The position numbers and the translations under genes were made by a program. This document shows, piece after piece, positions 187 through 14,232 of a stretch of DNA of 64,000 nucleotides. The stretch's first letter is position 1; each line of letters starts with the position of its first letter. The notes beneath the pieces were generated by a model. That model worked only from the letters and a program-made list of their open reading frames with translations, searched no databases and was not told where the DNA came from. Source of the stretch: a bacterium (GTDB lineage Bacteria > SM23-81 > DAOVCL01). The stretch lies in assembly GCA_029932675.1 (NCBI GenBank), contig JAOZPP010000005.1, forward strand, positions 13,235 to 77,234, given 5' to 3'.

Positions 187-1605
187 TCACTTAATCAACA
201 ACATCTTCCGCACTTCCTTTACCCTTTGCCCTCTGACTTTTAACCTGTAGATATAGACTCCACTGGCAACTGGGTTGCCCCCTGAGTCCTTACCGTCCCA
301 GACGACAGAATATCCCCCAGGTCCTTTCTCCTCATCCACCAGGGTCCGCACCAACTGACCAGCAATGTTGTAGACTTTTAAACTAACGTAGCTCGTGCTC
401 GTGGATCGTGCTCGTGAATCACCCTCCCCCGAACACGAGTAACTTTTGAGGGTGGCAGGGTAGAGACGATCTACGAACAACGAGTAACGAACAACGGTTG
501 TTGCATTAAACGGATTGGGGTAGTTCTGTTCCAAAGCAAATCGGCTGGGAAGGGGGACATCTTTGGCTTCGTCAACAAAATCCGCTCCGCCGTAGATGGC
601 CATATCCTGAGCCCCATCGCCAAAGCCGTAGGTGGCCATCACCGAGTCATTTTGGGGAGAGAACTTCTGCACTGCGTCATCACCAAAATTGCTCACCCAG
701 ATCACGTCCTCTCTATCATCGTAGAGAACCCTCATCGCCCCCTTGCCAATGCGGATTGGATTGTCCCGGCTATGGTAAACATCCCCAGTGTAGACATCAT
801 AGCTATAGAGGAAGCCACTTTTCTCATCGCCCCAGTCGGGGAGATAGCCTCTGCCCCCTTGGGTGATTGCTATGTCCCCTGGCCAACCGCCGAGCTCGAC
901 GGTATCCACCACCGCCGGTGTCGAATCCGGTCCTGCCCAGCGGTCTATAACACAGACCTTGCCGGCATTGGCCTCCCAGAGCCCTGAACAGACCACATGG
1001 ACCCTTCCATCTGGAGCCAGGGCCAGGTCCTGGGCGTTGCGGGGCATAGGAAGGGTTGTAGTCACCTCATCGGTAGCAAGATCAATAACCGAGACCGAGG
1101 AAGGTGCAAAGTCTGGATGCCCTCCGCTGTTGGCCACAAAGGCCAGGTTATCCACCACCAAGATTCCCTCAGGCCCAACTCCAACGGGAATATCTTTCAC
1201 CACTAAACCATTCTCTAAATCAACAACCGACACGGTATTTGCCAAGTAGTTGGTCACATAAGCCCTGTTAGAGCCAACAACTGCCATAAACCAGGGATTG
1301 CTCCCCTCGGCCAGGCCGATCCGCCTCTCCACCCCTTCATCTTGGGGATCGATCACCATAATCTCCGGCGGCGTGGAATTGACCACGTAGATCCTCTCTT
1401 CGAAGCCAACCACCTGATTGGGAATATCCCCCAGTTGGAGAAAATCATTGGTGATCTCAGAAGTCTCTAAGTTCATCTTGGAAAGGGTTCTCCCCAACCC
1501 ATTTAGGACATATAAGGTGCGAGGGATATCCCCCCCGTAGAGAACGGAAGCCAAGCCAATCAGAGACAAAACCCTGATCATCAATAGGATTTTTGTGCTT
1601 CTCAC
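187..1605 (-). CDS. Secreted YncE-like beta-propeller with C-terminal sorting domain (BtuG-like candidate)
   Basis: The product is about 472 aa. The GTG at 1605 is preferred over an upstream in-frame ATG because AAGGAGG lies just before it and it places a hydrophobic signal peptide at the N-terminus. The body is a YncE/WD40-like propeller with repeats of the form 'AYVTNYLANTVSVVDL', 'GVGPEGILVVDNLAFVANS' and 'PQDLALAPDG'. From about residue 365 comes a sorting domain (QNYPNPFN, VYNIAGQLVRTLVDE, SGVYIYRL). It lies downstream of the BtuB-like receptor in a riboswitch-led gene set, so by analogy with BtuG it may capture cobalamin at the cell surface; that is inference. Oddity: the sorting domain carries an insertion of roughly 28 residues made of short DNA repeats (393-496). 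Confidence 0.85.
   Translation of the reverse strand: MRSTKILLMIRVLSLIGLASVLYGGDIPRTLYVLNGLGRTLSKMNLETSEITNDFLQLGDIPNQVVGFEERIYVVNSTPPEIMVIDPQDEGVERRIGLAEGSNPWFMAVVGSNRAYVTNYLANTVSVVDLENGLVVKDIPVGVGPEGILVVDNLAFVANSGGHPDFAPSSVSVIDLATDEVTTTLPMPRNAQDLALAPDGRVHVVCSGLWEANAGKVCVIDRWAGPDSTPAVVDTVELGGWPGDIAITQGGRGYLPDWGDEKSGFLYSYDVYTGDVYHSRDNPIRIGKGAMRVLYDDREDVIWVSNFGDDAVQKFSPQNDSVMATYGFGDGAQDMAIYGGADFVDEAKDVPLPSRFALEQNYPNPFNATTVVRYSLFVDRLYPATLKSYSCSGEGDSRARSTSTSYVSLKVYNIAGQLVRTLVDEEKGPGGYSVVWDGKDSGGNPVASGVYIYRLKVRGQRVKEVRKMLLIK
393..496. repeat. Short tandem-repeat insertion inside a sorting domain
   Basis: Within the propeller gene the DNA holds about 7-nt units: ACGAACA/ACGAGTA/ACGAACA near 474-495, and several CTCGTGn units near 399-417. 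It encodes a low-complexity stretch rich in S, R and T, in frame, at the loop between the first two strands of the sorting domain. The other two intact sorting domains of this type in the window (genes at 4245 and 44484) have only a short 'LPK' turn there. Confidence 0.7.
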
Positions 1606-1992
1606 AGCCCCCTCCTTTTTGTATGCACTGAAGGAAAGCAAAAAGACCTAAAGATTTGCCCCTCCTCCGCCGGAATCGCGGATAAAAGCAGTCTTCATAG
1701 TGGGGCAAGGCCGTAACCCAATAATTCACCGCAGAGGACGCTTTAAAGGTTCTTACCACTCTGGTCACTAAATGGATTATGGGCCATTGCGAGCCCCGTT
1801 AGATATCAATGATGGTTCGCTGAACTCCAAGATTGGCAGAAATTATCTAACGGGGCGAGCGAATAAAGTGCGGTAGAAGTTGATACTTTGAGCAACCCAA
1901 AATTGGAGTACAAAGCCGGTGGGGATTTATGAATAATTCGGATCCATCAGGGCAGAGCCCTACCAGCACAGGGAGACTTTGGAGCATACGAA
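1606..1992. other. Intergenic region with hairpin repeats
   Basis: This 387-bp gap separates the BtuB-like receptor from the downstream propeller. No credible gene was seen. It holds two long inverted repeats (1794-1855 and 1930-1999), and a 15-nt word (1864-1878) that recurs inverted at 6889-6903. AAGGAGG just before 1605 is the ribosome-binding site of the downstream propeller gene. Confidence 0.6.
1785..1878. repeat. Dispersed hairpin element
   Basis: It begins CATTGCGAGCCCCG, a word repeated with one change at 7003-7016. It contains 12-bp perfect arms CCCCGTTAGATA (1794-1805) and TATCTAACGGGG (1844-1855), and ends with TAAAGTGCGGTAGAA (1864-1878), whose exact reverse complement is at 6889-6903. 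It looks like a non-coding repeat family, copies of which flank the B12 surface genes. Confidence 0.55.
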
Positions 1993-1999
1993 TTATTCA
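1930..1999. repeat. Inverted repeat over the end of the receptor gene
   Basis: TGAATAATTCG (1930-1940) pairs with CGAATTATTCA (1989-1999). The right arm contains the receptor's stop codon (1993-1995). A second small hairpin, AGGGC/GCCCT (1949-1961), sits within the loop. There is no U-run, so a simple terminator is unlikely; a structured 3' end or a small mobile repeat is possible. Confidence 0.5.
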
Positions 2000-4233
2000 G
2001 CCCGATAATCCCATTTTAAGGCCCTCTTCAGGGTCAGCCCGATCCTCCACTCCCGTGGGGGGAGGGGGGCTCTTTCCATAATCTGGTATTTCACATTCCT
2101 TAGGTTGTATATCGAGCCCCTGATCTGAACATCCACCCCCTTGATCCTTGGCTTCACCCCAACGGTGAGATCATCCACCTCATAGCCAGGCATCTCTACG
2201 GTGTTGGCCTCGGTGACGAATCTCTCACCGATTAGCCTCCGCCGGTATTGGAGTTGGAAGATCCGGTAGTTCAAATCCACTCCGATCCTGACACTCCTGC
2301 GAAGACGGTAAGGAAGGTCCCTGTTGTGAGTGGTCCTCTCCCCGCTTTTGTTGATCGGCTTAAGATGAGTCCGACTCCAGCGCAAGCCAAAGATCTCGTC
2401 AGGACTCTGCCAGCTCAGCTCGTACTCCTCTCCAGATATCTCAGCATTGGTATTAAAGGGAGAGAAGGTGGCAAAGGAGCCCAGCCTCCAAATTATGAGG
2501 TCATCCACCTTGTTGTAAAAATGGGTGAGTTCTGCTTGAAGTTCACCCCAGATATGCCACTTGATGCTTACTCCGAGTTCGAAGGAGAAGGACTTTTCGG
2601 GTTTCAGGTCCGGCTTGCCCTTAACCCGATACTCCTGGTAGAATAGATCAGCGAAAGTCGGGGGACGAAATGAACGACCGAGATTAGCCTTAAGCCCAAT
2701 TCTATTCAGCTTGCCTCGCCAAAGAAGTAGGCCTAGCTTGGGACTCCATTGCCTCTCATACTCACTTGCCTCTTTATTTTTAATGCGGATCCGATCGTAG
2801 CGTAGCGCTGAGGTCAATAGCCCCTGTTTAAACCCTATAGGAAAAGGAAACTTTAATTCATCATAGAGCCAGATCCCATGGGTGTAATCCCTGGTCTCCC
2901 CTATCGGTTCATTAGAGGGCTGAATTAGATCCTCATCGGTATAGTGGGTCCAGTTCCCTTCGTAGCCGAAGCGAAGGGTCCCCAACCCCTGCAGGAAAAC
3001 CTGGGTGGTAAATCTTAGCTGGTAGTCGGTCAGCCAACTTTTAGAGTGATATCGAGGGACAGTGCGATACCGCAGAGGGACATCAGGAGGGTAGATGTGC
3101 CTGTATTCTGTGGTTGATCTGTGATAGCTCAGGTGAATATCTGCTTGCACCCGCCTCCAATGGGCGCCACAGTGACCTCCCAAGATGTTCCGATCTGTCT
3201 TCGCCCTGGCATAAGGGGTGAGGCCAAAGATCAATCCCGGCAATCCCCGCTCTGAGCGGAACCGATAACCGTGTAGTTCAAATTCGTAACTTCCCCATTG
3301 GTAACTGAACTTACCAAACCCACAGTTGGAGAAGAAGTCAGCGTTAATCCGATCTTCCTTAATCGTGGTTCCATCCGGTCGCTCGTAGGAGTAGGGGTAA
3401 TCCCCCTCGCTTTTCTGCTGTTCAAAGGAGACAAAATACCCCAGTCTCTTCAGACTACCAGAGAAAGTTGGGGCCCAGTTAGTTGTGCCATATGCCCCGA
3501 CTTCCCCCTGTAGGGTTATCTGGGACTGGGATGGCTTCCTGGTTAGGATATTGATGACGCCACCGATGGCCCCAGCACCGAAACGGGCCGAGCTCCCTCC
3601 CTTGATGACCTCGATCCTCTCCACCATTCTCAAGGGGATATTGGTCAGATCCACCTCTCCGATTAGAGCATCGTTGAGTTTGATGCCATCCAGCAGAACC
3701 AGCACCTGGTTTGGGCGACTGCCGCGGATGGAAACCGTCTTCTCCCCATCCTTCTCCTGAATCTCCACCCCTGGAACCTGCTGGAGGATCTCCCCTAAGT
3801 TTTGAGCATTGCTTTGTTCGATATCCTTGGCCGTGATGATTACCACCGAGGTTGGCTGTTCCTCTGGAATGCGACTACCAATGACGGTAATACAGGGCAG
3901 GTTAATAACCTTGGGTTGAAGATCGAAATCAACCTCCACAGGACGATCCAGGCCCACCTTAACTCCAGACTTGGTCTGGCTCTCATACCCTATATAGCTG
4001 GCGGTTATGGTGTATTCGCCCACGAAGAGGTTCTCGATCACCCATCGACCGCATTCATCTGAGGAGGTCCCCAGGCCGGTGCCCTCCACCACGATATTGG
4101 CTCCATAGAGGGGCTTGTGGGTGGTTCGATCCCGAACCACCCCCGTTATCTTCACCACCGACTGGCACCAGCCTGAGGTAAAGGTCAGAAGGATCAGAAG
4201 AGCAATCCTTGATAGGTGGATAAGCTGTTTCAT
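1993..4233 (-). CDS. btuB: BtuB-like TonB-dependent outer-membrane receptor
   Basis: A 746-aa receptor for active uptake across the outer membrane. A signal peptide (residues 1-23) is followed by a carboxypeptidase-regulatory-like domain (about 28-110, 'ITGVVRDRTTHKPLYGANI'). Next comes a plug domain (about 115-235, with 'VLVLLDGIKLND', 'VERIEVIKGGSSARFGAG', 'GGVINILTRK'), then a 22-strand-type barrel ending in an aromatic-rich tail. The plug resembles BtuB and other vitamin or metal-chelate receptors more than SusC. It starts 11 nt after the upstream propeller gene, so the two are probably co-transcribed. The cobalamin riboswitch at the head of the gene set makes cobalamin or a related corrinoid the likely substrate. 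The exbB-exbD-tonB operon at 59.4-61.6 kb could energise it. Confidence 0.9.
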   Translation of the reverse strand: MKQLIHLSRIALLILLTFTSGWCQSVVKITGVVRDRTTHKPLYGANIVVEGTGLGTSSDECGRWVIENLFVGEYTITASYIGYESQTKSGVKVGLDRPVEVDFDLQPKVINLPCITVIGSRIPEEQPTSVVIITAKDIEQSNAQNLGEILQQVPGVEIQEKDGEKTVSIRGSRPNQVLVLLDGIKLNDALIGEVDLTNIPLRMVERIEVIKGGSSARFGAGAIGGVINILTRKPSQSQITLQGEVGAYGTTNWAPTFSGSLKRLGYFVSFEQQKSEGDYPYSYERPDGTTIKEDRINADFFSNCGFGKFSYQWGSYEFELHGYRFRSERGLPGLIFGLTPYARAKTDRNILGGHCGAHWRRVQADIHLSYHRSTTEYRHIYPPDVPLRYRTVPRYHSKSWLTDYQLRFTTQVFLQGLGTLRFGYEGNWTHYTDEDLIQPSNEPIGETRDYTHGIWLYDELKFPFPIGFKQGLLTSALRYDRIRIKNKEASEYERQWSPKLGLLLWRGKLNRIGLKANLGRSFRPPTFADLFYQEYRVKGKPDLKPEKSFSFELGVSIKWHIWGELQAELTHFYNKVDDLIIWRLGSFATFSPFNTNAEISGEEYELSWQSPDEIFGLRWSRTHLKPINKSGERTTHNRDLPYRLRRSVRIGVDLNYRIFQLQYRRRLIGERFVTEANTVEMPGYEVDDLTVGVKPRIKGVDVQIRGSIYNLRNVKYQIMERAPLPPREWRIGLTLKRALKWDYRAE

Positions 4234-4244
4234 CGGCGAGGCTT

Positions 4245-5570
4245 CTATCGCAGAAGAACCATCCTTCTTGCCTGGATGAAATCTCCAGCTTCGAGGTGGC
4301 AGAAGTAAACCCCGCTGGCAAAATCTGAGGCATACCAGGAGACGCTCTTCTGCCCTGCTTTCTGGTATTCATCCACCAAAGTGGCCACCCGCTGGCCCAG
4401 CAGGTTATAGATTTCCAGTTTGACCCAACAGCCTTTTGGCAAGCCATAGGCGATCTGGGTGACTGGGTTGAAGGGATTGGGATAATTCTGCAGAAGCGCA
4501 AAACCTCGGGGAACTAAATCCTCCTCCTCTGCCACCCAGGTGGAATCGCTGGCAGGACGGATAGCTATGGACACCGGGCCATCGCCGACCGAGAAGGTCC
4601 ACACCACCACATCGTTGGTATCTATCTGGGAGACGGTATTGGCCATAAAGTTACAGGAGTAGGCGTAGTTATCCTTGTCACAGCCAATTCCCAAAGCACC
4701 CTTTCCCACCAGAATGGGATTATCCGGGCCGCGCAGCACCTGGTTGGTTTCGGTATCAAAAGTGTAGACAAAACCGTGGTCGCTGGGGTACCAGCCTCCG
4801 GCCGCCAGATAAGCTATGCCCCGAGGGCTAATGGCTATGGCTGTTGGGGCTCCGCCGATAGCGATGCTGTCTACGACAGAGTCGCTTACCGTATTGATCA
4901 CATATATCCTTCCTGGGATCGACCAGTAGTCTCCGGTGCAGACGACATTCAGCTCACCGTCTTGGTCTAAGGCCAGGTCCTGTGGATTGGTGCCCACATC
5001 GATAACCTTTACCACCGAGTCTGTGGTTGACTCGATGACGGAGACAGTCCCCTGCCCGTAGGTTCCCGTTAAAGTATCCCACTCCGTGTTGGTTACATAG
5101 ACCTTATCCCCTACCACAGCCACCCCCTCCGGACCAACTCCGACGGCTATTTGATCGATGACCTCTCGGGTGTTGACATTCACCACCGAAACCGAGTCGA
5201 TGTTGAAGTCGGTCACATAGGCAATGCTATCGTTGAGAAAGGCCATATGCCAGGGGTTGCTGTAGGGCTGGGTCATCTCAATGTATCCCTCAGTGCTGTC
5301 TGCATCCAGGTTGATGATCTGGATGTTGTTCGATGTGCGATCTGAGTTGATCACATAACCTTTGTTCCCCCTTATCACAATCTGATTGGGGGTCTTCCCC
5401 ACGTCCACCACATCGTTGAAGACCTCGTTTGTCTCCAAATTGATGCGAGATAGGCTCTCCGACGATGTCGCCCCATTCACCACCCAGGCTGTCTTTGGAT
5501 TCCCTGCGATGGAGCTTGTTACGGCAACTCCAATGATCAGAATCCCTGCAAGAAATAGACTACCCTTCAT
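4245..5570 (-). CDS. Secreted YncE-like beta-propeller with C-terminal sorting domain (BtuG-like candidate)
   Basis: The product is about 441 aa. The ATG at 5570 is preferred over one at 5633 because it follows AAGGGAG and begins a clear signal peptide (MKGSLFLAGILIIGVAV). The repeats ('AYVTDFNIDSVSVVNV', 'VGVGPEGVAVVGDKVYVTN', 'NPQDLALDQDG') form a YncE-like propeller over residues 25-340. A sorting domain follows (QNYPNPFNP, LGQRVATLVDE, SGVYFCHL). Its propeller is clearly related to the one at 187-1605, so the two probably arose by duplication on either side of the receptor gene. BtuG of Bacteroides is a surface propeller that binds B12 and sits on BtuB; the same role here is inferred from fold and context. 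Confidence 0.88.
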   Translation of the reverse strand: MKGSLFLAGILIIGVAVTSSIAGNPKTAWVVNGATSSESLSRINLETNEVFNDVVDVGKTPNQIVIRGNKGYVINSDRTSNNIQIINLDADSTEGYIEMTQPYSNPWHMAFLNDSIAYVTDFNIDSVSVVNVNTREVIDQIAVGVGPEGVAVVGDKVYVTNTEWDTLTGTYGQGTVSVIESTTDSVVKVIDVGTNPQDLALDQDGELNVVCTGDYWSIPGRIYVINTVSDSVVDSIAIGGAPTAIAISPRGIAYLAAGGWYPSDHGFVYTFDTETNQVLRGPDNPILVGKGALGIGCDKDNYAYSCNFMANTVSQIDTNDVVVWTFSVGDGPVSIAIRPASDSTWVAEEEDLVPRGFALLQNYPNPFNPVTQIAYGLPKGCWVKLEIYNLLGQRVATLVDEYQKAGQKSVSWYASDFASGVYFCHLEAGDFIQARRMVLLR

Positions 5571-5815
5571 AGTCTTTCTCCCTTCCAGTTTGAGGTTAAT
5601 GTTGGGCTCCGAAGCCAGAGCACTATCTTTCAAATATGCATTCTATCACCCCCTCGCTTTGAGACTGTCTGCCTATTACAAAACTGGTAAGACAAGGGAT
5701 TGGAAACCTTATTATGGCGATGGAGCCCCATCTTGCGGCTTCGACAAATTGAACCCCTGGTATACACCGAACTTGGCTCCTCAAGGTTGTGTGGGGCGGC
5801 CTCTGTCTCATCTCT

Positions 5816-6799
5816 CTATCTGATCAGCACAAGTCTCCTCGTCCTTTCAGCTTTCGGCTTTCGGCTTTCAGCTTTCAGCCCTATCACTTCTAACCTACAT
5901 AGATACACCCCGCTGGCCAACTCTCCCCCCAGGTTGTCTTTTCCATCCCAGATTACGGTATATTCTCCGGGCGACTGTTGTTCATCCACCAGGGTCCTCA
6001 CCTCCTGGCCTAAGATGTTGTAGACCCGGAGGGTGACGGCGGTCTGCGGACGGCCGACGGCCGACAGACGGTAGCGGATGAGGGTGGAGGAGTTAAACGG
6101 ATTGGGGTAATTTTGGGCCAAGAGAAAGGAGCCTGGTAGGTTTTTCTCATCACCCCCCCTGCACCCACTCGATGAGTGGATGGCAACAATGGCATCCAGA
6201 TCGAAGGAGGGGCCTGAATCCTGAACCAGGCTGTCCGCATCGGTAACCCTGACAAAACGAGCAGAGGGCAAACCCACCTCGGCTAAGTCGAAGGAGTCTC
6301 CCCCAGAGACAGTCGGATCAGTGGGATCCGCGGCCCCATTGGTGGGAGTCACCCCGGCCAATCCGGCGAAGGTTTTGGGATCATAGGGAAACTCAATGAA
6401 GTCAATCCCATCCTGGCTAACTGCCACTATTCCCGTCTCGGCATAGGACTTGGTGGTATCTCCTCCTATATAGAAGGGGTTTTCGAAGACGGTGAAATCG
6501 GGGCCTTCCTTGTCCACTATGATGTTGTCAATAAATTCCAAAATGATACTCCCACCTGTTCCCAGGGACAAAAGTTCCCGAGGGCTACTACTGGGGCTGG
6601 TAGATGTGGCCATTGAATCCGGTGGCCCGAGCACATTGCCCGGAAAATATGGCTCTCCGAAACCGGCTCCCGGCCCGGGAGAAAAAGCAACCACGGAATC
6701 GGCCCAGGGGTCACCAAGATCCTGTGGCAAACCCTCCGAAAAGGGGTAAGATATTGCCAACAGGATAAGCATCCCGATTAAGGTTCTACCTCTTCCCAT
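5816..6799 (-). CDS. Secreted surface protein with C-terminal sorting domain, first gene of the B12-controlled set
   Basis: A 327-aa protein with a signal peptide (about 1-23). GAGGAGG lies 7 nt before its ATG. The body (about 30-215) has a motif-rich region, 'PGPGAGFGEPYFPGNVLGPPD', with acidic beta-rich segments such as 'GPDFTVFENPF' and 'ARFVRVTDADS', resembling discoidin-like sugar or ligand-binding folds. I do not recognise an assigned function. The tail is a sorting domain (QNYPNPFNSSTLIRY, ILGQEVRTLVDEQ, SGVYLCRLEV). As the first gene after the cobalamin riboswitch it is probably a third surface component of corrinoid capture (inference). Oddity: two repeat-derived insertions lie in the sorting domain (5844-5878 and 6043-6070). 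Confidence 0.8.
   Translation of the reverse strand: MGRGRTLIGMLILLAISYPFSEGLPQDLGDPWADSVVAFSPGPGAGFGEPYFPGNVLGPPDSMATSTSPSSSPRELLSLGTGGSIILEFIDNIIVDKEGPDFTVFENPFYIGGDTTKSYAETGIVAVSQDGIDFIEFPYDPKTFAGLAGVTPTNGAADPTDPTVSGGDSFDLAEVGLPSARFVRVTDADSLVQDSGPSFDLDAIVAIHSSSGCRGGDEKNLPGSFLLAQNYPNPFNSSTLIRYRLSAVGRPQTAVTLRVYNILGQEVRTLVDEQQSPGEYTVIWDGKDNLGGELASGVYLCRLEVIGLKAESRKPKAERTRRLVLIR
5844..5878. repeat. Five tandem heptamers inside a coding sequence
   Basis: Five consecutive 7-nt units alternate CTTTCAG and CTTTCGG. They lie in the last coding strand of the surface protein and encode the charged stretch 'KAESRKPKAER' just before the terminal strand. In the related genes the same place holds a short 'GDFIQARR'-type turn. 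Confidence 0.85.
6043..6070. repeat. Heptamer repeat inside a coding sequence
   Basis: Tandem ACGGCCG units (6050-6063) with partial copies either side fall in the sorting domain of the same surface protein. The position is the first inter-strand loop, the one expanded in the gene at 187-1605. It adds about five residues. Confidence 0.65.
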
Positions 6800-7171
6800 T
6801 GTCTGCCTCCTCTGACAAACATTGTTTTAGATCCCAAGTTTTACAGAGTTTTTCATAGAAACCGCAGATTCACGCAAATGGACGCAGATTCTACCGCACT
6901 TTAGTGCGGGTTCAGAAACTGAGAAGAGTGAGATTGCTCGTCGCAGAGCCTGTGCTGAGAGGGATCAAAGCGCTCCTCGCCAAGACCCATCCCTTTGCCT
7001 GTCATTGCGAGTCCCGAGCGGGTGGGTGCCCTTAGCTGATGGTACTGGTGGCAGAATCGGGGTTCTTCCACCTCGGTAATAACTTTCTAATTTCCATTTT
7101 CGCCTCGATTTGCGGCTTTGCTGCGCTATGTCTATCTGGGTTCATCCGTGGTTGGCTATTATTTGAAATAA
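6800..7171. other. Long leader between riboswitch terminator and first gene, with repeats
   Basis: No credible gene was seen. It holds CCGCACT/AGTGCGG (6894-6909, 2-nt loop), the 15-nt word shared inverted with 1864-1878 (6889-6903), CATTGCGAGTCCCG (7003-7016) and a hairpin copy GTGGCAGAA/TTCTTCCAC (7048-7071). On the minus strand it is the 5' untranslated region of the surface operon. Confidence 0.55.
7048..7071. repeat. Copy 1 of the GTGGCAGAA hairpin repeat
   Basis: GTGGCAGAA, loop TCGGGG, then TTCTTCCAC (one mismatch in the stem). The same hairpin and loop recur exactly at 48034-48057 and in diverged form at 55719-55738, each time between genes. Confidence 0.7.
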
Positions 7172-7206
7172 AAAACCCGACCTTCTTAGGAAGAAAGTCG
7201 GGTTTT
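7172..7206 (-). terminator. Intrinsic terminator downstream of the cobalamin riboswitch
   Basis: On the minus strand a 10-bp stem AAAACCCGAC/GTCGGGTTTT, extended by an inner CTTCTT/AAGAA pairing, is followed by a run of T. It lies about 50 nt after the end of the riboswitch, fitting transcription attenuation when cobalamin is bound. Confidence 0.85.
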
Positions 7207-7257
7207 ACCCGGATACTCCGAACCTCACCCTCGAAGGTTTCTGGAATTCCAAACGAA

Positions 7258-7455
7258 CCCGGCAGGTTTCCTGACTTAGGGCTTCAAACCTACTCACCAG
7301 ACCTTCCCATTCCGACTTCGGTCAGAACAGTGGTTCTCTTAAGTCATCAGGCCTAATCGCCTGAATGACTTGGCTGGCTTTCGTAGCCCATCACAGTAGC
7401 GGGGCTGTGACGGATTCTCACCGTCTTCCCTTTTACCCTGATAAGGCACCGGGAA
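7258..7455 (-). promoter_or_regulatory. Cobalamin riboswitch
   Basis: Read on the minus strand the element has the family landmarks in order: GGTGCC (7450-7445), the core GGGAAGACGGTGAGAATCC, CAGCCCCGCTACTGTGA, then CCACTG ... AATGGGAAGG, and closes with GTCAGGAAACCTGCC (7275-7261). The length of about 195 nt is normal. A promoter lies 30 nt upstream and an intrinsic terminator 50 nt downstream, so cobalamin binding should repress the minus-strand surface operon. Confidence 0.96.
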
Positions 7456-7481
7456 CACAAGATTTACCAAAGAACAAACTC

Positions 7482-7509
7482 AATATAGCAGACTCTCAGC
7501 AGAAGTCAA
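7482..7509 (-). promoter_or_regulatory. Sigma70-type promoter of the B12 surface operon
   Basis: On the minus strand TTGACT (7509-7504), a 16-nt spacer and TATATT (7487-7482). Transcription would start near 7475, just ahead of the riboswitch. Confidence 0.8.
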
Positions 7510-7752: not shown

Positions 7753-8268
7753 ATGCCCATAGAGGGATTATTTACCAGTATGGGGATAAGTGCCTCTGGC
7801 CTCCTTGCCCAGAGGGTGAGGATGAATGCCATTGCCTCAAACATTGCCAATGTAAACACAACTAAGACCCCGGAGGGGGGTCCATATAGGAGACAATGGG
7901 TTGCCCTTGTTGCCAGTGGGCAAGGGGGATTCCTCATCCCCGAAGGAGATTACCCTCCCCTTTCCCTATCACTTCCCCTGGTTTCCACCAACCGGGCCCA
8001 CCTTCCGCGAGAAGGGCTTCATCCTATAGCACGAAGGCCAATGGGGGTTAAGGTGAAGGGGGTGATTAGGGAAGAAGGGGACTTTAAACGGATATATGAT
8101 CCCCAGAATCCCGAGGCAGATGAAGACGGATGGGTGACTATGCCGAATATAGATCTGGCCACTGAAATGGTGGATATGATAACGGCAACAAGGGCCTATG
8201 AGGCAAATGTCACCGCATTCAACGCAGCGAAGCACATGGCTTTGAAATCAATGGAGATTGTAAGGTAG
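7753..8268 (+). CDS. flgC: Flagellar basal-body rod protein FlgC
   Basis: A 171-aa proximal rod subunit. The N-terminal rod domain has the family signature 'RMNAIASNIANVNTTKTPEGGPYRRQ', and the C-terminal helix is 'DLATEMVDMITATRAYEANVTAFNAAK'. It is exported by the flagellar type III system and polymerises outside the MS ring. A strong ribosome-binding site precedes the ATG, and fliE follows after 4 nt. It is the first gene of the locus; its usual partner flgB is not upstream. Confidence 0.96.
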   Translation: MPIEGLFTSMGISASGLLAQRVRMNAIASNIANVNTTKTPEGGPYRRQWVALVASGQGGFLIPEGDYPPLSLSLPLVSTNRAHLPREGLHPIARRPMGVKVKGVIREEGDFKRIYDPQNPEADEDGWVTMPNIDLATEMVDMITATRAYEANVTAFNAAKHMALKSMEIVR

Positions 8269-8272
8269 AGAA

Positions 8273-8563
8273 ATGGATGGTATATCGAAATTATCGTCCC
8301 TTTCCGGGCTCTTCAAATCGCCTCCAGGGCCAAAGCCCGATAAGGAGTCCTTCAAGAAGACGCTCTTAGGATATATAGACCAGATTAACGAGCTCCAAAA
8401 TCGAGCTGACAAATCCATTGAGAAGCTTATCTCCGGTGAGGCGAAGGATCTCCATCAAGTGATGATCGCCGCTGAAGAGGCCTCTATAAGCTTTCAATTG
8501 ATGATGGAGCTACGGAACAAGATATTGGATGCTTACCACGAAGTGATGAGGATTCAAGTTTAA
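8273..8563 (+). CDS. fliE: Flagellar hook-basal body protein FliE
   Basis: A 96-aa protein linking the MS ring to the rod. The C-terminal half carries the typical 'DLHQVMIAAEEASISFQLMMELRNKILDAYHEVMRIQV' pattern (read in parts: DLHQVMIAAEEA, LRNKILDAYHEVMRI). Length is normal. It sits directly after flgC and is probably translated from the same message. Confidence 0.94.
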   Translation: MDGISKLSSLSGLFKSPPGPKPDKESFKKTLLGYIDQINELQNRADKSIEKLISGEAKDLHQVMIAAEEASISFQLMMELRNKILDAYHEVMRIQV

Positions 8564-8744
8564 CGAAGCCTCGCCTTCCCGCTCCAAGAGGGCAAATTAA
8601 CGAGTGCAGCGATATGGGTTAGGCGAAGCTTAGGATGGAGGATCAAGAATGACAGAGATTCGTAACCGGGAAGAATCAGGGCCTCAGCCCAATTGCTTTT
8701 GCTTCCCGCTTTGCCTTATGAAGTGGTTCAATCGGGAGTAGGAA

Positions 8745-10223
8745 ATGGGATCCTGGCAACAGTTGACTAAGGCAGCACAAAGGCTCAGTATAGGGCAGAA
8801 GTTGGCTATGGGAGCCGTTTGCCTCCTCGTCCTCCTCAGCATCATATTTGCCCTCCATTGGGCGAAGAGGCCGGATTTTGCTCCCCTCTATACCAACCTC
8901 TCCCCTCAGGATGCTGCCCAGATGGTGGATAAACTGAGGTCAGCGAAGATACCCTATAGGTTAGCTGCCGGGGGGACGACGATTATGGTTCCCTCTAAGG
9001 ATGTCTACCAGACGAGAATAAGCTTGGCCTCTGAAGGTCTTCCTCAGGCAAGCACGGTGGGATTTGAGATCTTTGATAAGACGAACCTGGGAACAACCGA
9101 TTTTGTGCAGAAGATCAACTACCATCGAGCATTAGAAGGGGAACTCACCAGGACCATTGAGCAATTGGCCGCGGTTCAATCGGCCAGGGTGCACCTCGTC
9201 ATCCCCAATCCCAGCCTTTTTGCCCAAGAGCAGAGGGAGGCTACAGCATCCGTTGTCTTGAATTTGGCGGGAGGGGGGAGGCTTAACCAAAATCAAGTTA
9301 AGGGGATAACTCATCTCGTGGCCAGTTCAGTGGAGGGTTTGAAGCCAGAGAATGTGACCATCTTGGATAGTTGGGGGAATATCCTTTCCGGTGGAGATGG
9401 GGAGGAAAATTCCCTTTTTACCCTGACCAGCAACCAATTGGACCTGCAGAAGAACGTGGAGAGTTACCTCTCCCATAAGGCCTTGGCTATGTTGGAAAAG
9501 GCAGTAGGGGTGGGGAATGCCATAGTGAAGGTGAATGTGGAGCTCGATTTCAAGAACATAGAGAAGACTGTGGAGAGTTACGATCCGGAGAGCTCGGTGA
9601 TCAGAAGTGAGGAGAGGAACGAACAGACCTCAGCTTCCCAAGGGGGAAAGAGCGAAAGTTCTATTACCAATTACGAGATCTCCAAGACAGTGGAACATAT
9701 AGTGGATAAGACCGGAAACATAGAGAAGCTCTGGGCTTCCGTTCTCATAAATGGAACCTACATCAGCAAAAAAGGGAAAAAGGGAAAGGAAATAAAGGTA
9801 TATCAGCCGAGGTCGGAAGAGGAAATCGGTCGGCTGACTGAAATAGTGAAGAAGGCCATTGGCTTTGATCCCGCCCGCGGCGACCAAATTGAGGTGGCCA
9901 ATATCCAGTTTGGAACTTCCCCTCAGCCAGCTCAGGTCAATTTGAAACCCTCTCCCCTGGCGAGGATGGGGTCTGGGATGGGGAGGAAAGTTTTGATAGG
10001 GATTATTTTAGTTGTGGCCCTCTTCTTTTTAAAGCTTGCCCTTAAGCAATTGGGGGAGATAGCCTCCTCCCTTCAGCCCACCCCTTCAGCCCCCACTATG
10101 GGTGGAGGGGAGGAAGGGGAGAAGGAGGTTAGATATGATCCCAAGGCGGAGATAATCAAGATGGCCAACGAGAAACCGGACCAACTGGCCTCTTTAGTGA
10201 GGAGTTGGCTAACCAAAGAATAG
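8745..10223 (+). CDS. fliF: Flagellar MS-ring protein FliF
   Basis: A 492-aa inner-membrane ring protein that seeds the flagellum. A transmembrane helix lies near residues 20-42 and a second near 420-440. Between them are ring-building motifs ('PLYTNLSPQDAAQMVDKL', 'YQTRISLASEGLP', 'FDKTNLGTTDFVQKINYHRA', 'ALEGELTRTI'). The cytoplasmic C-terminus that binds FliG ends in 'PDQLASLVRSWL'. A 181-bp gap with no gene separates it from fliE; fliG follows after 4 nt. Confidence 0.97.
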   Translation: MGSWQQLTKAAQRLSIGQKLAMGAVCLLVLLSIIFALHWAKRPDFAPLYTNLSPQDAAQMVDKLRSAKIPYRLAAGGTTIMVPSKDVYQTRISLASEGLPQASTVGFEIFDKTNLGTTDFVQKINYHRALEGELTRTIEQLAAVQSARVHLVIPNPSLFAQEQREATASVVLNLAGGGRLNQNQVKGITHLVASSVEGLKPENVTILDSWGNILSGGDGEENSLFTLTSNQLDLQKNVESYLSHKALAMLEKAVGVGNAIVKVNVELDFKNIEKTVESYDPESSVIRSEERNEQTSASQGGKSESSITNYEISKTVEHIVDKTGNIEKLWASVLINGTYISKKGKKGKEIKVYQPRSEEEIGRLTEIVKKAIGFDPARGDQIEVANIQFGTSPQPAQVNLKPSPLARMGSGMGRKVLIGIILVVALFFLKLALKQLGEIASSLQPTPSAPTMGGGEEGEKEVRYDPKAEIIKMANEKPDQLASLVRSWLTKE

Positions 10224-10227
10224 GGAG

Positions 10228-11250
10228 ATGGCTTTAGCGAAGGGGAAATTATCTGGAGCCCAGAAGGCTGCAGTGTTGCTGATAACTTTGGGGCCGGATG
10301 CTGCTTCGCAGGTCTTGAAGGAATTGAGCCAGACAGAGGCGCAAATGGTAGTGGGGGAGATAGCTAAACTCAAGGAGATACCTCCGGAGCTAAAGGATGA
10401 GGTGGTGGAGGAGTTCCTCGATGTCAGCCAGAGGAAAAATGAGGCAACCGAGGGGGGAACTGAATTTGCCAGTGAACTCCTCCGCAAGGCGATTGGGGGG
10501 AAGAAGGCCCAGGAGATGCTGCGCAAGGCCATGGAGGGGTATGAGATAAACCCCCTGGAGCTCATCAAAAGCAGTGAACCGGAGGAACTCACCAAACATC
10601 TCCAGGAGGAACATCCCCAAATCATCGCCCTTATCCTTGCCTTTCTTCCCCGGGACTTGGCTTCGCAGGTCCTCTTAAACCTCCCTGAGGAGACCTCCCG
10701 GGATGTTATTAAAAGGATGGCGGTCACGGAGAGGATCTCCCCTCAGATAATAAAGGAGGTAACTGACCTCCTTGGCGAGAAGTTGGACACGGGCTCCGCT
10801 TTGGGGGTGGAGGCCTTTGATGGGGTGAAGACAGCGGCTGAACTCTTGAGCTTCTTGGGAGCTTCAACGGCAAAGGATATACTTGACGATCTGGAGAAGG
10901 TGAATCCGGAGATGGCCCAGAAGATGCAGGAGTTCCTCTTTATGTTTGATGATATAGCCCATCTGGATGATCGTTCGGTGCAGAGGTTGCTTAAGGAGAT
11001 CGATACCAAGCAGTTAACTTTTGCTTTGAAGGCAGCAAGCGAGGAGGTGAAAAAGCGCTTCCTGCAGAATATGTCGGAGAGGGCTCAAGAGGCTCTCAGG
11101 GAGGATATGGAGCTGTTGGGCCCGGTGAGGGTCTCGGAGGTGGAGGAGGCTCAGAGGGCTATAGCTGCAACGGTGCGGAATCTCTCCTATGCTGGGGAGA
11201 TAATCATCCCCCGAAAGGGGGGTGAGGGAGGAGGGGATGAGTATGTATAA
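10228..11250 (+). CDS. fliG: Flagellar motor switch protein FliG
   Basis: A 340-aa rotor protein that couples the MS ring to the C-ring and contacts the stator. N-terminal FliF-binding and armadillo-like middle domains are visible ('EEHPQIIALILAFL' carries the EHPQ motif, near residue 130). The C-terminal torque helix region has charged residues ('LDDRSVQRLLKEID', 'LRALK'-like 'TFALKAASEEVKKRFLQNMS'). The length is normal and it overlaps the start of fliH. Confidence 0.97.
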   Translation: MALAKGKLSGAQKAAVLLITLGPDAASQVLKELSQTEAQMVVGEIAKLKEIPPELKDEVVEEFLDVSQRKNEATEGGTEFASELLRKAIGGKKAQEMLRKAMEGYEINPLELIKSSEPEELTKHLQEEHPQIIALILAFLPRDLASQVLLNLPEETSRDVIKRMAVTERISPQIIKEVTDLLGEKLDTGSALGVEAFDGVKTAAELLSFLGASTAKDILDDLEKVNPEMAQKMQEFLFMFDDIAHLDDRSVQRLLKEIDTKQLTFALKAASEEVKKRFLQNMSERAQEALREDMELLGPVRVSEVEEAQRAIAATVRNLSYAGEIIIPRKGGEGGGDEYV

Positions 11251-11845
11251 TAAGGTGATAAAAAGCAAGATACCACCCGTGGGGATCAGGGTGGTGGGAG
11301 GAAACTTGAGCCCTTCCCCTCCACCCCTTCCTTTGCCTCAGAAGCCACAGTCCTCTTCAGCATCAAATTACCAGAAGGGATTTGAGGAGGGGAAGAGGGA
11401 GGGCCTGAGGTTGGGCAGAGATGAGGTAGCTCAAGTAGTTTCTCAACTTAAGGCCATCTCAGGGGCCATCCTGGAAGCGAAAAAGGAGATCATCAATCAA
11501 GCCCAAAGGGAAGTGGTGGAGCTGGCTCTGGCCATAGCGAAGAGGGTGGTGAGGGCCAATGTACAGGTTAATAAGGAAATAATCATCAATATGGTTGAGG
11601 AGACCCTGCGGCGGACAGTGGATAGGGAGAGGATCGTCATCAGGGTTAATCCAAGCGATGTGGAGGTGATAAAGTCAAATCGCTCCCAGTATACCTCCTC
11701 AATTGAGGGGATAGAGAACTTGGAGATAGTCGCTGATCGGAGGGTTTCACCAGGTGGCTGTGTGGTGGAGACGAACACGGGGAGCGTAGTTGCTGACATC
11801 GATGCTCAATTGGAGGAGATAAAGGAGAAACTTATTGGAAGCTGA
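11243..11845 (+). CDS. fliH: Flagellar assembly protein FliH
   Basis: About 200 aa; regulator of the export ATPase FliI. Three in-frame starts exist (GTG 11222, ATG 11237, ATG 11243). The ATG at 11243 has the best spacing to GAGGAGGGG. A proline-rich N-terminus leads into 'YQKGFEEGKREGLRLGRDE' and a helical segment, then the C-terminal FliH/HrpE-type domain ('VVELALAIAKRVVR', 'VRVNPSDVEVI'-like, 'DRRVSPGGCVVETNTGSV'). It overlaps fliG and fliI. Confidence 0.92.
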   Translation: MYNKVIKSKIPPVGIRVVGGNLSPSPPPLPLPQKPQSSSASNYQKGFEEGKREGLRLGRDEVAQVVSQLKAISGAILEAKKEIINQAQREVVELALAIAKRVVRANVQVNKEIIINMVEETLRRTVDRERIVIRVNPSDVEVIKSNRSQYTSSIEGIENLEIVADRRVSPGGCVVETNTGSVVADIDAQLEEIKEKLIGS

Positions 11846-13208
11846 AATGGATTTAGAGAAATACCTAAAAGCCATCGAGAGGATAGATCCCATAAAACAG
11901 AGGGGAAAGGTGACCCAAGTAGTGGGATTGTTGATAGAGTCGTTGGGCCCTTCGGTCTCAGTGGGGGAGATCTGTGATTTGGTTTACAGTAGAACGGCAA
12001 AACCGGTAAAATCTGAAGTGGTAGGTTTTAAGGAAAGGAAGGTTCTCCTGATGCCCCTTGGGCCAATGCTGGGGATTGGCCCGGGAACAGAGGTAGTGGC
12101 TACCCACCAGGCCCTTTCTGTGGGGGTAGGAAGGGAGCTTTTGGGGAGGATCCTCAATGGTTTGGGGGAGCCGATGGATGGTAAAGGCCCCCTGGTGACC
12201 AGCCAGAGGAGGTCTGTATATGCGTCTCCGCCCCACCCCTTGGAGAGGAAAAGGATTAAGGAACCTTTGCCCACTGGAATTAGGGCCATTGATGGTCTGC
12301 TTACCTGTGGAAAGGGACAGAGGGTAGGAATATTTGCTGGTAGCGGAGTGGGAAAGTCCGTCCTCTTAGGGATGATTGCCAAAAAGAGCGAGGCCGCCGT
12401 CAATGTCATTGGACTTATTGGGGAGAGGGGGAGGGAGGTAAGGGACTTTATAGAGAGGGATCTGGGGGAGGAAGGGTTGAAGAGGTCTGTTGTCGTAGTG
12501 GCCACCTCAGATCAGCCTCCCTTGATTAGGTTAAAGGGTGCTCTGGTGGCCACCACTATAGCGGAGTTCTTTCGGGATGAGGGGTTTGATGTGATGTTGA
12601 TGATGGATTCGGTGACCAGGATCGCCATGGCCCAAAGGGAGATTGGGCTAGCCATTGGTGAACCACCCACTTCAAAGGGGTATACCCCTTCTACCTTCGC
12701 CTTTTTGCCCCAGTTCTTAGAACGGGCGGGAAATTCCCATCGGGGAAGCATCACCGGCCTCTATACCATATTGGTAGAAGGGGATGATATGAACGAGCCC
12801 ATCTCCGATGCCTGCCGGGCAATACTTGATGGGCATATAGCCCTCTCGCGTAAATTGGCTTCTCAGAACCACTATCCGGCCATCGATGTGTTGGAGAGCG
12901 TTTCCCGGGTAATGATAGATGTGGTTGGGCCTGAACATATGGAGGCAGCCAAGAAGCTACACGAGGCCTTGGCTACTTACCGGGATTCCGAGGATCTGAT
13001 AAACATTGGGGCATATGTGCCTGGATCGAACAAAAGGATAGACTACTCCATCTCTATGATCGATCGGATCAACTCCTTTCTCAAACAGGATATTGAGGAG
13101 GACACTGGATATGAGGAGACGGTTGATCGGCTGATCGGGATGTTCAAGTTCAATCCGGCCCAGGAGATTACCCCTCCTGAGAAGGACCTGGCCCAGAGGG
13201 TAGGATGA
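11835..13208 (+). CDS. fliI: Flagellum-specific export ATPase FliI
   Basis: A 457-aa F1-beta-like ATPase of the flagellar type III export apparatus. Walker A is 'GIFAGSGVGKSVLL' (about residues 164-177) and Walker B lies near 'VMLMMDSVTRIAMAQREIG'. The family signature 'PTSKGYTPSTFAFLPQFLERAG' is present (given in parts: PPTSKGYTPS, LPQFLERAG). The TTG at 11835 sits 7 nt after AAAGGAG and is preferred; an in-frame ATG at 11847 is possible. It overlaps fliJ by 4 nt (ATGA). Confidence 0.97.
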   Translation: MEAEMDLEKYLKAIERIDPIKQRGKVTQVVGLLIESLGPSVSVGEICDLVYSRTAKPVKSEVVGFKERKVLLMPLGPMLGIGPGTEVVATHQALSVGVGRELLGRILNGLGEPMDGKGPLVTSQRRSVYASPPHPLERKRIKEPLPTGIRAIDGLLTCGKGQRVGIFAGSGVGKSVLLGMIAKKSEAAVNVIGLIGERGREVRDFIERDLGEEGLKRSVVVVATSDQPPLIRLKGALVATTIAEFFRDEGFDVMLMMDSVTRIAMAQREIGLAIGEPPTSKGYTPSTFAFLPQFLERAGNSHRGSITGLYTILVEGDDMNEPISDACRAILDGHIALSRKLASQNHYPAIDVLESVSRVMIDVVGPEHMEAAKKLHEALATYRDSEDLINIGAYVPGSNKRIDYSISMIDRINSFLKQDIEEDTGYEETVDRLIGMFKFNPAQEITPPEKDLAQRVG

Positions 13209-13657
13209 AACGTTTTAACTTCAGGTTAAAGAAGGTTCTCAAACACAGGGAGATCTTGGAGAACTTAGAGAAGGAGAGGTTGGGAAGGGTCAAATCAGAG
13301 CTGAAAAGGGAGACGGAGTTATTGAAGGAGATGGAAGACACGAGAAGGAGGGCAAGGGAAAAGTTGAGGGAGAGGAGGGAGGAAGAGATTAACCTTCCCG
13401 AAGCCCTGATCTATGAGGCATTCCTGGAGAGGATGGACGAGGAGGTTAACCTCCAGGCGGCGAAGGCTGCCCAACTTACCCAGAAGGTGGAGGAAACCAG
13501 GGAGGACCTCCTGCGTGCCTCTAAGCGAAAGAAGATTGTGGAGAAATTGAAGGAGAGGAAAAAAGCTGAATATGCCTCCGAGGTGAGGAGGTTTGAGCAG
13601 GGGATAAGCGATGAAGCCTCGATCAACCGGTTCAATCGTAAAGCGGGGGAAAAATGA
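13205..13657 (+). CDS. fliJ: Flagellar export chaperone-like protein FliJ
   Basis: A 150-aa, highly charged, almost entirely coiled-coil protein with the typical N-terminal 'FRLKKVLKHREILENLEKE'. FliJ helps FliI deliver energy and substrates to the export gate. The call rests on coiled-coil content, length and position after fliI. It overlaps both neighbours by 4 nt. Confidence 0.92.
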   Translation: MKRFNFRLKKVLKHREILENLEKERLGRVKSELKRETELLKEMEDTRRRAREKLRERREEEINLPEALIYEAFLERMDEEVNLQAAKAAQLTQKVEETREDLLRASKRKKIVEKLKERKKAEYASEVRRFEQGISDEASINRFNRKAGEK

Positions 13658-14232
13658 TGAAGAAGGTAATTTTGAACCTTATCCTCACCCTGGTCATCTT
13701 TATCGGGATGATGATGGCCACTGGGGTAATGCAGAAGCAACTGTTGCCGGTGCTAAGATTGAAGAAGGAGTTGGCGAAAGGCTCCCCAGCCCAGCGAGGT
13801 GAGGCAGCAGGTGATACCCTCTTGGCAGAGCAGAGTTCACCTCCAGATTCGGCCACTCTGATGCGCAAAGAGATAGAGGCCCAGAGGAAGGAGATAGCCG
13901 CCAAGCTGGCTGCATTGCGGAAAAGGGAGAAGGAGGTCTCCCAACGGGAGCAGAAAATAGAAGAGGAACTTGCCCAACTTAAGAGCTTAAAAGAAGAGCT
14001 CAACGCAACGGCCAGCACTCAGGCCTCCAAGTTGGCCAAGGCATTTCAGGCGATGGATGCGGGTCAGGCAGCAAAGATAGCCGGAAACCTTGATGATCGA
14101 ACGCTAACCGACCTTTTGCTGCAGTTAAGGGAGAGGAATGCGGCCAAGATACTTGCTGCCTTGGACCCTTCCCGTGCAGCCCGCATCTACAAAAGTTTGA
14201 GTAGCAAAGATCTACAGGCCTCAAGCCAATGA
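13654..14232 (+). CDS. MotE-like protein with MgtE N-terminal-type domain
   Basis: A 192-aa protein: one N-terminal transmembrane helix (about 5-25), a coiled coil (about 65-125), then a C-terminal MgtE_N-like helical repeat domain ('AMDAGQAAKIAGNLDDRTL', 'MRERNAAKILAALDPSRAA'-like). Such proteins commonly sit between fliJ and fliK. The best studied, MotE of Helicobacter, chaperones a stator-supporting scaffold. The role here is inferred from domain order and position. Confidence 0.82.
   Translation: MMKKVILNLILTLVIFIGMMMATGVMQKQLLPVLRLKKELAKGSPAQRGEAAGDTLLAEQSSPPDSATLMRKEIEAQRKEIAAKLAALRKREKEVSQREQKIEEELAQLKSLKEELNATASTQASKLAKAFQAMDAGQAAKIAGNLDDRTLTDLLLQLRERNAAKILAALDPSRAARIYKSLSSKDLQASSQ

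Follow-up and report, generated by a model that had tools for sequence, protein, structure and literature searches.

We describe a cobalamin riboswitch-controlled locus that very probably encodes a B12-repressed system for corrinoid capture and import, a variant of the BtuB/BtuG/BtuH machinery whose capture proteins, predicted to bind B12, would be sorted by the type IX pathway instead of being lipid-anchored. The locus lies in a 64,000-nucleotide stretch of DNA (the window) from a draft genome (3.03 Mb, 116 contigs, 97% complete). The GTDB phylum of this host counts very few genomes and includes a record named "candidate division Zixibacteria bacterium SM23_81". Behind the leader, the minus strand carries four ORFs (5816-6799, 4245-5633, 1993-4233 and 187-1641), which encode, in order after the terminator, a 327-aa secreted protein, a seven-bladed propeller, a BtuB-family TonB-dependent receptor and a second propeller (Table 1). 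Signal peptides of the locus proteins were judged by eye. The mechanically called ORFs of genes 2 and 4 reach 5633 and 1641, and reading the sequence places their probable starts further downstream, at the ATG at 5573 and at the GTG at 1605 behind AAGGAGG. Because a gap of about 350 nt separates gene 3 from gene 4, gene 4 is placed on the riboswitch transcript only presumptively. A search of a plasmid collection gave no match. Divergent from the B12 locus, a putative flagellar operon begins right behind the promoter of the riboswitch on the plus strand (7753-14232), with a basal-body rod protein recognized by Pfam and FliE-, FliF-, FliG-, FliH- and FliI-like proteins recognized by eye.

Table 1. 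Features of the B12 locus, in window coordinates
Feature	Position	Strand	Evidence
Promoter-like site, TTGACT-16-TATATT, TG before second hexamer	7482..7509	minus	10/12 consensus matches
Cobalamin riboswitch aptamer RF00174, complete	7244..7468	minus	cmscan 90.4 bits, E=4.5e-21, model 1-189
Intrinsic terminator and probable expression platform: hairpin of 16 pairs with a U run behind it	7172..7206	minus	16-pair hairpin and T run; 5' arm can pair with P1 3' strand
Gene 1, 327-aa secreted protein: BtuH-like domain, then type IX sorting tail	5816..6799	minus	ORF, Pfam, NCBIfam, profile, model
BtuH-like domain of gene 1	6158..6739	minus	profile, predicted structure, conserved residues
Gene 1 C-terminal tail for sorting (FlgD_ig / Por_Secre type)	5819..6115	minus	FlgD_ig 9e-10; TIGR04183 24.9 bits, above cut-off
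Gene 2, tailed seven-bladed propeller, probable ATG start	4245..5573	minus	ORF, Pfam, profile, model, tree
Propeller domain of gene 2, net charge -28	4518..5522	minus	model pLDDT 93.3, pTM 0.91
Gene 3, BtuB-family TonB-dependent receptor, N-terminal CarboxypepD_reg	1993..4233	minus	Pfam CarboxypepD_reg, Plug, barrel; profile
Gene 4, second tailed propeller, probable GTG start	187..1605	minus	ORF, Pfam, BtuG profile, tree
Propeller domain of gene 4, net charge -28	556..1539	minus	61% identity to second propeller of L095

The leader contains a complete cobalamin aptamer. The RF00174 match (gathering score 31.5 bits) encloses the span 7258-7455 in which the first-pass annotation, made from the DNA letters, had recognized a riboswitch, and the leader as a whole (7160-7475) is more stably folded than 100 out of 100 dinucleotide shuffles (z=-4.43). 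The minus-strand intrinsic terminator of that annotation was likewise recovered, as a hairpin followed by a T run. As read from the sequence, the P1 3' strand (CCGGGTT) is able to pair with the terminator 5' arm (AACCCG), and a terminator/antiterminator switch is therefore likely. The proposed promoter fared less clearly: a site with the consensus matches given in Table 1 is present, but sites of this type are no commoner than in shuffled sequence (8 observed versus 8.0), so that it is the position upstream of the riboswitch that argues for it. Some 370 nt (6800-7160) run from the terminator to the start codon of gene 1; they hold no notable ORF and resemble dispersed intergenic sequence.

On profile and model evidence, gene 1 is a compact, distant BtuH-like protein that would bind B12, which replaces its earlier description as an uncharacterised surface component. 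Its domain of ~190 aa (net charge -22) sits between the signal peptide and the sorting tail and has no match in Pfam, even at E 10; an assignment to DUF4465/BtuJ was rejected on this basis, and the LIC_13355 family scored 32.8 bits against a cut-off of 120. For BtuK, a B12-binding lipoprotein of B. theta, no report of a fold was found (PMC12751083). Used whole as a query on genome contigs, the gene 1 protein returned mostly matches to its generic tail, with a full-length match only at one locus (L003). Relatives of the domain itself were gathered from whole genomes. It is present in 45 of 395 Bacteroidota genomes and, within the window's phylum, in one of the three further genomes; 82 genomes from the phylum to which a KSB1 record belongs (the KSB1-type phylum) gave 33 strong matches. 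Searched against the PDB, a profile built on 44 sequences matched two chains only, 8blw_B (BtuG1, in its H-domain, E=3e-6) and 7biz_A (BtuH2, E=0.0027). The AlphaFold model of the domain (pLDDT 92.4, pTM 0.90) leads to the same two proteins: VIA-align ranks B12-bound BtuH2 first (7biz_A, Z 14.0, 149 residues, 2.9 Å) and the BtuG1 H-domain second (8blw_B, Z 13.1), followed by unrelated folds, jelly-rolls such as CBM32, at Z 9.5 and below. Foldseek alone placed 8blw_B on top with a poor superposition, and the clear answer came from VIA-align.

BtuH2 holds the phosphate of B12 through Asn399 and contacts its lower ligand through Phe401 (PMC8941943). hhalign, which aligns the gene 1 family with BtuH2 (95.8%), maps these residues, with the BtuH2 numbering checked against the chain, to two positions of gene 1: Asn107, conserved in 66/66 sequences of the domain alignment, and Phe109, conserved in 64/66. 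Together, the PDB profile matches, the best structural alignments and these conserved residues argue for the BtuH-like assignment. The alignment covers only the part of BtuH2 with Asn399 and Phe401 and ends before the corrin contacts His476, Tyr510, Trp511 and Trp577. Since these contacts are unmatched and the domain is shorter (190 versus about 270 aa), its corrinoid pocket may differ from that of BtuH2. The recovered contacts also bear on the ligand. Something other than B12 could be imported, either another corrinoid or a precursor such as cobinamide, as cobamide riboswitch operons of B. theta answer to several cobamides (PMC12751083) and BtuG2 binds cobinamide (PMC10404256). We consider this quite unlikely, because the contacts recovered from BtuH2 target the phosphate and lower ligand only, both absent from cobinamide, which favours a complete cobamide.

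The family extends beyond the set discussed here. Weak matches to the BtuH-like profile with no riboswitch nearby occur at four loci (L136:6685-8406, L173:6665-7870, L175:7081-8028 and L176:7361-7990), one of them fused to an OmpA domain, which suggests a wider superfamily with other functions. At three more (L129:2291-4022, L132:1368-3100 and L133:6524-8250), a second BtuH-like subfamily stands behind a weak riboswitch together with a DUF6580-type membrane protein, a hint that DUF6580 is a corrinoid transporter component.

The receptor was correctly recognized in the first pass as BtuB-like; Pfam finds its Plug and barrel domains. In the PDB, a profile of eleven operon receptors ranks the three B. 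theta BtuBs (BtuB1-3) highest (E 5e-79 to 5e-63), with E. coli BtuB next and the colicin I receptor after it. Because BtuBs outrank every other PDB receptor, gene 3 is classed by sequence as a BtuB-family receptor, with B12 transport predicted. Its top NCBIfam model is that of the B12 receptor (TIGR01779, E=2e-50), at 171.8 bits, below the cut-off of 599.7. The protein carries a net charge of +14.

The propellers are related to BtuG, though at one remove. When a profile is built from Bacteroidota operon proteins of BtuG type alone, it aligns to genes 2 and 4 in one colinear match each (142 and 110 bits), whereas two other propellers encoded by the host reach no more than 44 and 37 bits in any single match. 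Gene 4 also scores above the cut-off (28.6 versus 27.2 bits) for DUF5074 (PF16819), the Pfam family matched by BtuG-type proteins. In a maximum-likelihood tree, 75 propellers split into 35 and 40 (support 98/86). One side includes the BtuG lipoproteins; the other contains both window propellers, those of another genome of the phylum (G002), all KSB1-type propeller+BtuH-like fusions and extra, mostly tailed Bacteroidota propellers. The loci sampled contain 26 Bacteroidota propellers with a lipobox but no tail; the window's two propellers and 15 of 17 KSB1-type fusions show the reverse, a tail but no lipobox. As the tree places both in the tailed sister clade, the window propellers are, on sequence grounds, BtuG relatives and not BtuG orthologues; of the first-pass term "BtuG equivalents", the relationship stands and the equivalence becomes an analogy. 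Comparison with BtuG structures, suggested at the same time as a check, gave high scores that do not discriminate: the gene 2 model aligns with BtuG at Z 34.5-35.4, but best with the generic YVTN propeller 1l0q (Z 38.6). Because all seven-bladed propellers score high, fold comparison cannot separate BtuG from the others, and for this we relied on the tree and on the BtuG-only profile. A profile of window-phylum propellers also ranks 1l0q first, so we do not accept a sequence score alone as proof of BtuG membership.

Whether the propellers themselves hold B12 is a separate matter. Residues described for the B12 pocket of BtuG2 include Trp194, Trp272 and Tyr316, and the propeller loops of the window diverge too far from BtuG2 for a trustworthy map of pocket residues. 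BtuK2 and BtuL of B. theta belong to B12 loci and fail to bind B12 (PMC12751083), so membership of such a locus need not mean binding. Alternatively, only the BtuH-like protein and the receptor might handle B12, with the tailed propellers acting as a lid, spacer or docking platform that has no corrinoid pocket. Such a division of labour, which we rate as somewhat unlikely, would suit a clade that stands apart from the BtuG lipoproteins, and several loci hold a tailed propeller besides a BtuG-type one, as if their jobs differed. Yet the window and most KSB1-type loci lack a BtuG-type propeller, so that the pocket-bearing lid would be missing, and the tailed propellers are strongly acidic (net -28), like BtuG2 (-18; PMC10404256), and match the BtuG profile far better than the two other genome propellers do. 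We therefore keep to propellers that take part in capture as the preferred reading.

The presence of two propellers per receptor, taken as unusual in the first pass, turned out not to be so, because it recurs in at least 11 other loci (L003, L137, L153, L158, L168, L169, L170, L171, L203, L204 and L205), each with one BtuG-type and one tailed-clade propeller. Two tailed-clade propellers in one locus have so far been seen only in the window's phylum. Three of these loci (L203:528-4122, L204:1-3268 and L205:883-4375) place BtuG-clade propellers in KSB1-type genomes, two of them with a lipobox; BtuG proper therefore also occurs outside Bacteroidota.

Export by a type IX-like system through C-terminal sorting domains in place of lipid anchors, as first proposed, is well supported by sequence for genes 1, 2 and 4. 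All three end in a YPNPF sorting tail that matches Por_Secre_tail or FlgD_ig, the tails of genes 1 and 2 passing the TIGR04183 cut-off, and the host genome encodes the type IX translocon protein SprA (758.7 bits summed). A lipobox was sought in the three proteins and found in none. Being generic, with more than 150 in the genome, the tails tell us little of B12 function. Two of them have unusual segments: in the tail-coding end of gene 1 (5844-5879), a CTTTCAG heptad repeated about five times yields a repetitive KAESRKPKAER between sorting-tail strands, and in the gene 4 tail (190-531) the YPNPFN strand is set apart from the FlgD-like part by an additional segment (RLYPATLKSYSCSGEGDSRARSTSTS).

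Type IX substrates may be released or surface-attached, both of which occur, and those with type A tails are usually attached. The absence of a lipobox and the possibility of release would allow the tailed proteins to act as soluble carriers ("cobalophores") that bring B12 back to the receptor, much as the vesicle-borne BtuJ of B. theta has been described as siderophore-like (PMC12751083). The tails, however, resemble type A, as the TIGR04183 matches of genes 1 and 2 indicate, and the fusion of capture domain and propeller seen in other genomes suggests work at the receptor. This makes soluble carriers unlikely, and surface-held capture proteins are what we assume below.

The gene set recurs behind cobalamin riboswitches in three phyla, in answer to the first-pass question of whether related genomes keep the order. 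In a Melioribacter-like genome (L003), a riboswitch is followed by a BtuH-like gene, a receptor, a BtuG-type lipoprotein and a tailed propeller. In G002, of the window's phylum, two riboswitches lie upstream of an ECF S-component-like gene, followed by a receptor, a tailed propeller+BtuH-like fusion, a second propeller and a second BtuB-like receptor (L095). A Bacteroides-like locus (L174) shows the BtuGH-type fusion, already known, downstream of a riboswitch. Among the 45 Bacteroidota genomes with the domain, 24 have a BtuH-like gene no more than 5 kb downstream of a co-oriented riboswitch, for a chance expectation of about 0.04. In the KSB1-type phylum, a riboswitch was found in 19 of 20 loci, and the one locus that lacks it is truncated by the end of its contig; a propeller+BtuH-like fusion is present in 17 of the 20. 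The BtuH-like domain is thus usually fused to a propeller in that phylum, as it is in the window's own. That ordinary type IX surface proteins came to lie beside a BtuB gene by chance could be argued from the abundance of such tails and from several other propellers in the genome, but it is contradicted by this linkage, with the same set, fusions included, behind cobalamin riboswitches in three phyla, and we give it almost no credence.

Under the capture-and-import model, scarce B12 would lead the riboswitch to permit read-through into the genes. The gene 1 protein and the two acidic propellers would use first Sec and then the type IX translocon to reach the cell surface, where the BtuH-like domain may grip the corrinoid nucleotide loop with its invariant Asn-x-Phe motif. 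From a position over the BtuB-type barrel or close to it, a propeller could then hand the corrinoid on, by analogy with the BtuBG complex, described as a "pedal bin" (PMC10404256), and TonB would power import through the barrel. The inner membrane would probably be crossed by an ECF transporter. The second cobalamin riboswitch of the host genome (L096:4255-6941) governs an ECF S-component-like protein (a weak Pfam match) and a second BtuB-like receptor, and this S component-like gene suggests an ECF route rather than BtuCDF. The host also encodes a B12-dependent methylmalonyl-CoA mutase and a corrinoid methyltransferase protein whose gene adjoins one for homocysteine methyltransferase.

The closest known system is BtuB-BtuGH (BtuB1-BtuG1 of B. 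theta locus 1, 8blw), which shares the riboswitch, receptor, propeller and BtuH domain and, with the L095 and KSB1-type loci, the joining of propeller and BtuH in one chain. Its parts are lipoproteins, whereas the window proteins have a C-terminal type IX tail and no lipobox, their BtuH-like domain is shorter and encoded separately, and the propeller comes from the sister clade. BtuH2 (BT1956, 7biz) has the same B12-binding-domain fold and Asn399/Phe401 nucleotide-loop contacts, but also N-terminal PKD/Ig domains and a lipid anchor. BtuG1, BtuG2 and BtuG3 are, like the window propellers, acidic seven-bladed propellers beside a BtuB-type receptor behind a B12 riboswitch; they differ in clade, in anchoring and in sequence (roughly 20-30% identity). 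With type IX substrates (Por_Secre_tail PF18962, FlgD_ig PF13860, CHU_C PF13585), the three non-receptor proteins share their tails, the cargo here being a corrinoid-capture set instead. Each part is thus of a kind already known; the novelty lies in sorting by type IX, in a compact BtuH-like domain found outside Bacteroidota, in the sister clade of tailed propellers and in the frequency with which a second phylum joins propeller and BtuH-like domain in a single chain. Our search of the open-paper literature found no account of any of these, type-IX-sorted BtuG or BtuH included, which is not proof of absence. A survey of genomes from the human gut reported BtuG in Bacteroidetes only (PMC6143338), and no known structural homologues were reported for the BtuH domain (PMC8941943). 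More speculatively, FCB phyla outside Bacteroidota might have a type-IX propeller+BtuH machine that evolved apart from the BtuG lid, the tailed clade then being a second class of corrinoid-binding propeller, possibly one that leaves the cell to carry B12.

Altogether, at least three phyla of mostly uncultured bacteria combine BtuH-like domains with BtuG-related propellers in a system linked to a riboswitch, so that this scavenging machinery extends well beyond gut Bacteroidetes and includes a compact BtuH-like domain missed by Pfam. Lipid anchoring appears to be one of two ways to hold the capture proteins, and the natural minimal versions found here, a 190-aa domain and a single-chain propeller fusion, may serve for studying the transfer of B12 from capture protein to receptor.
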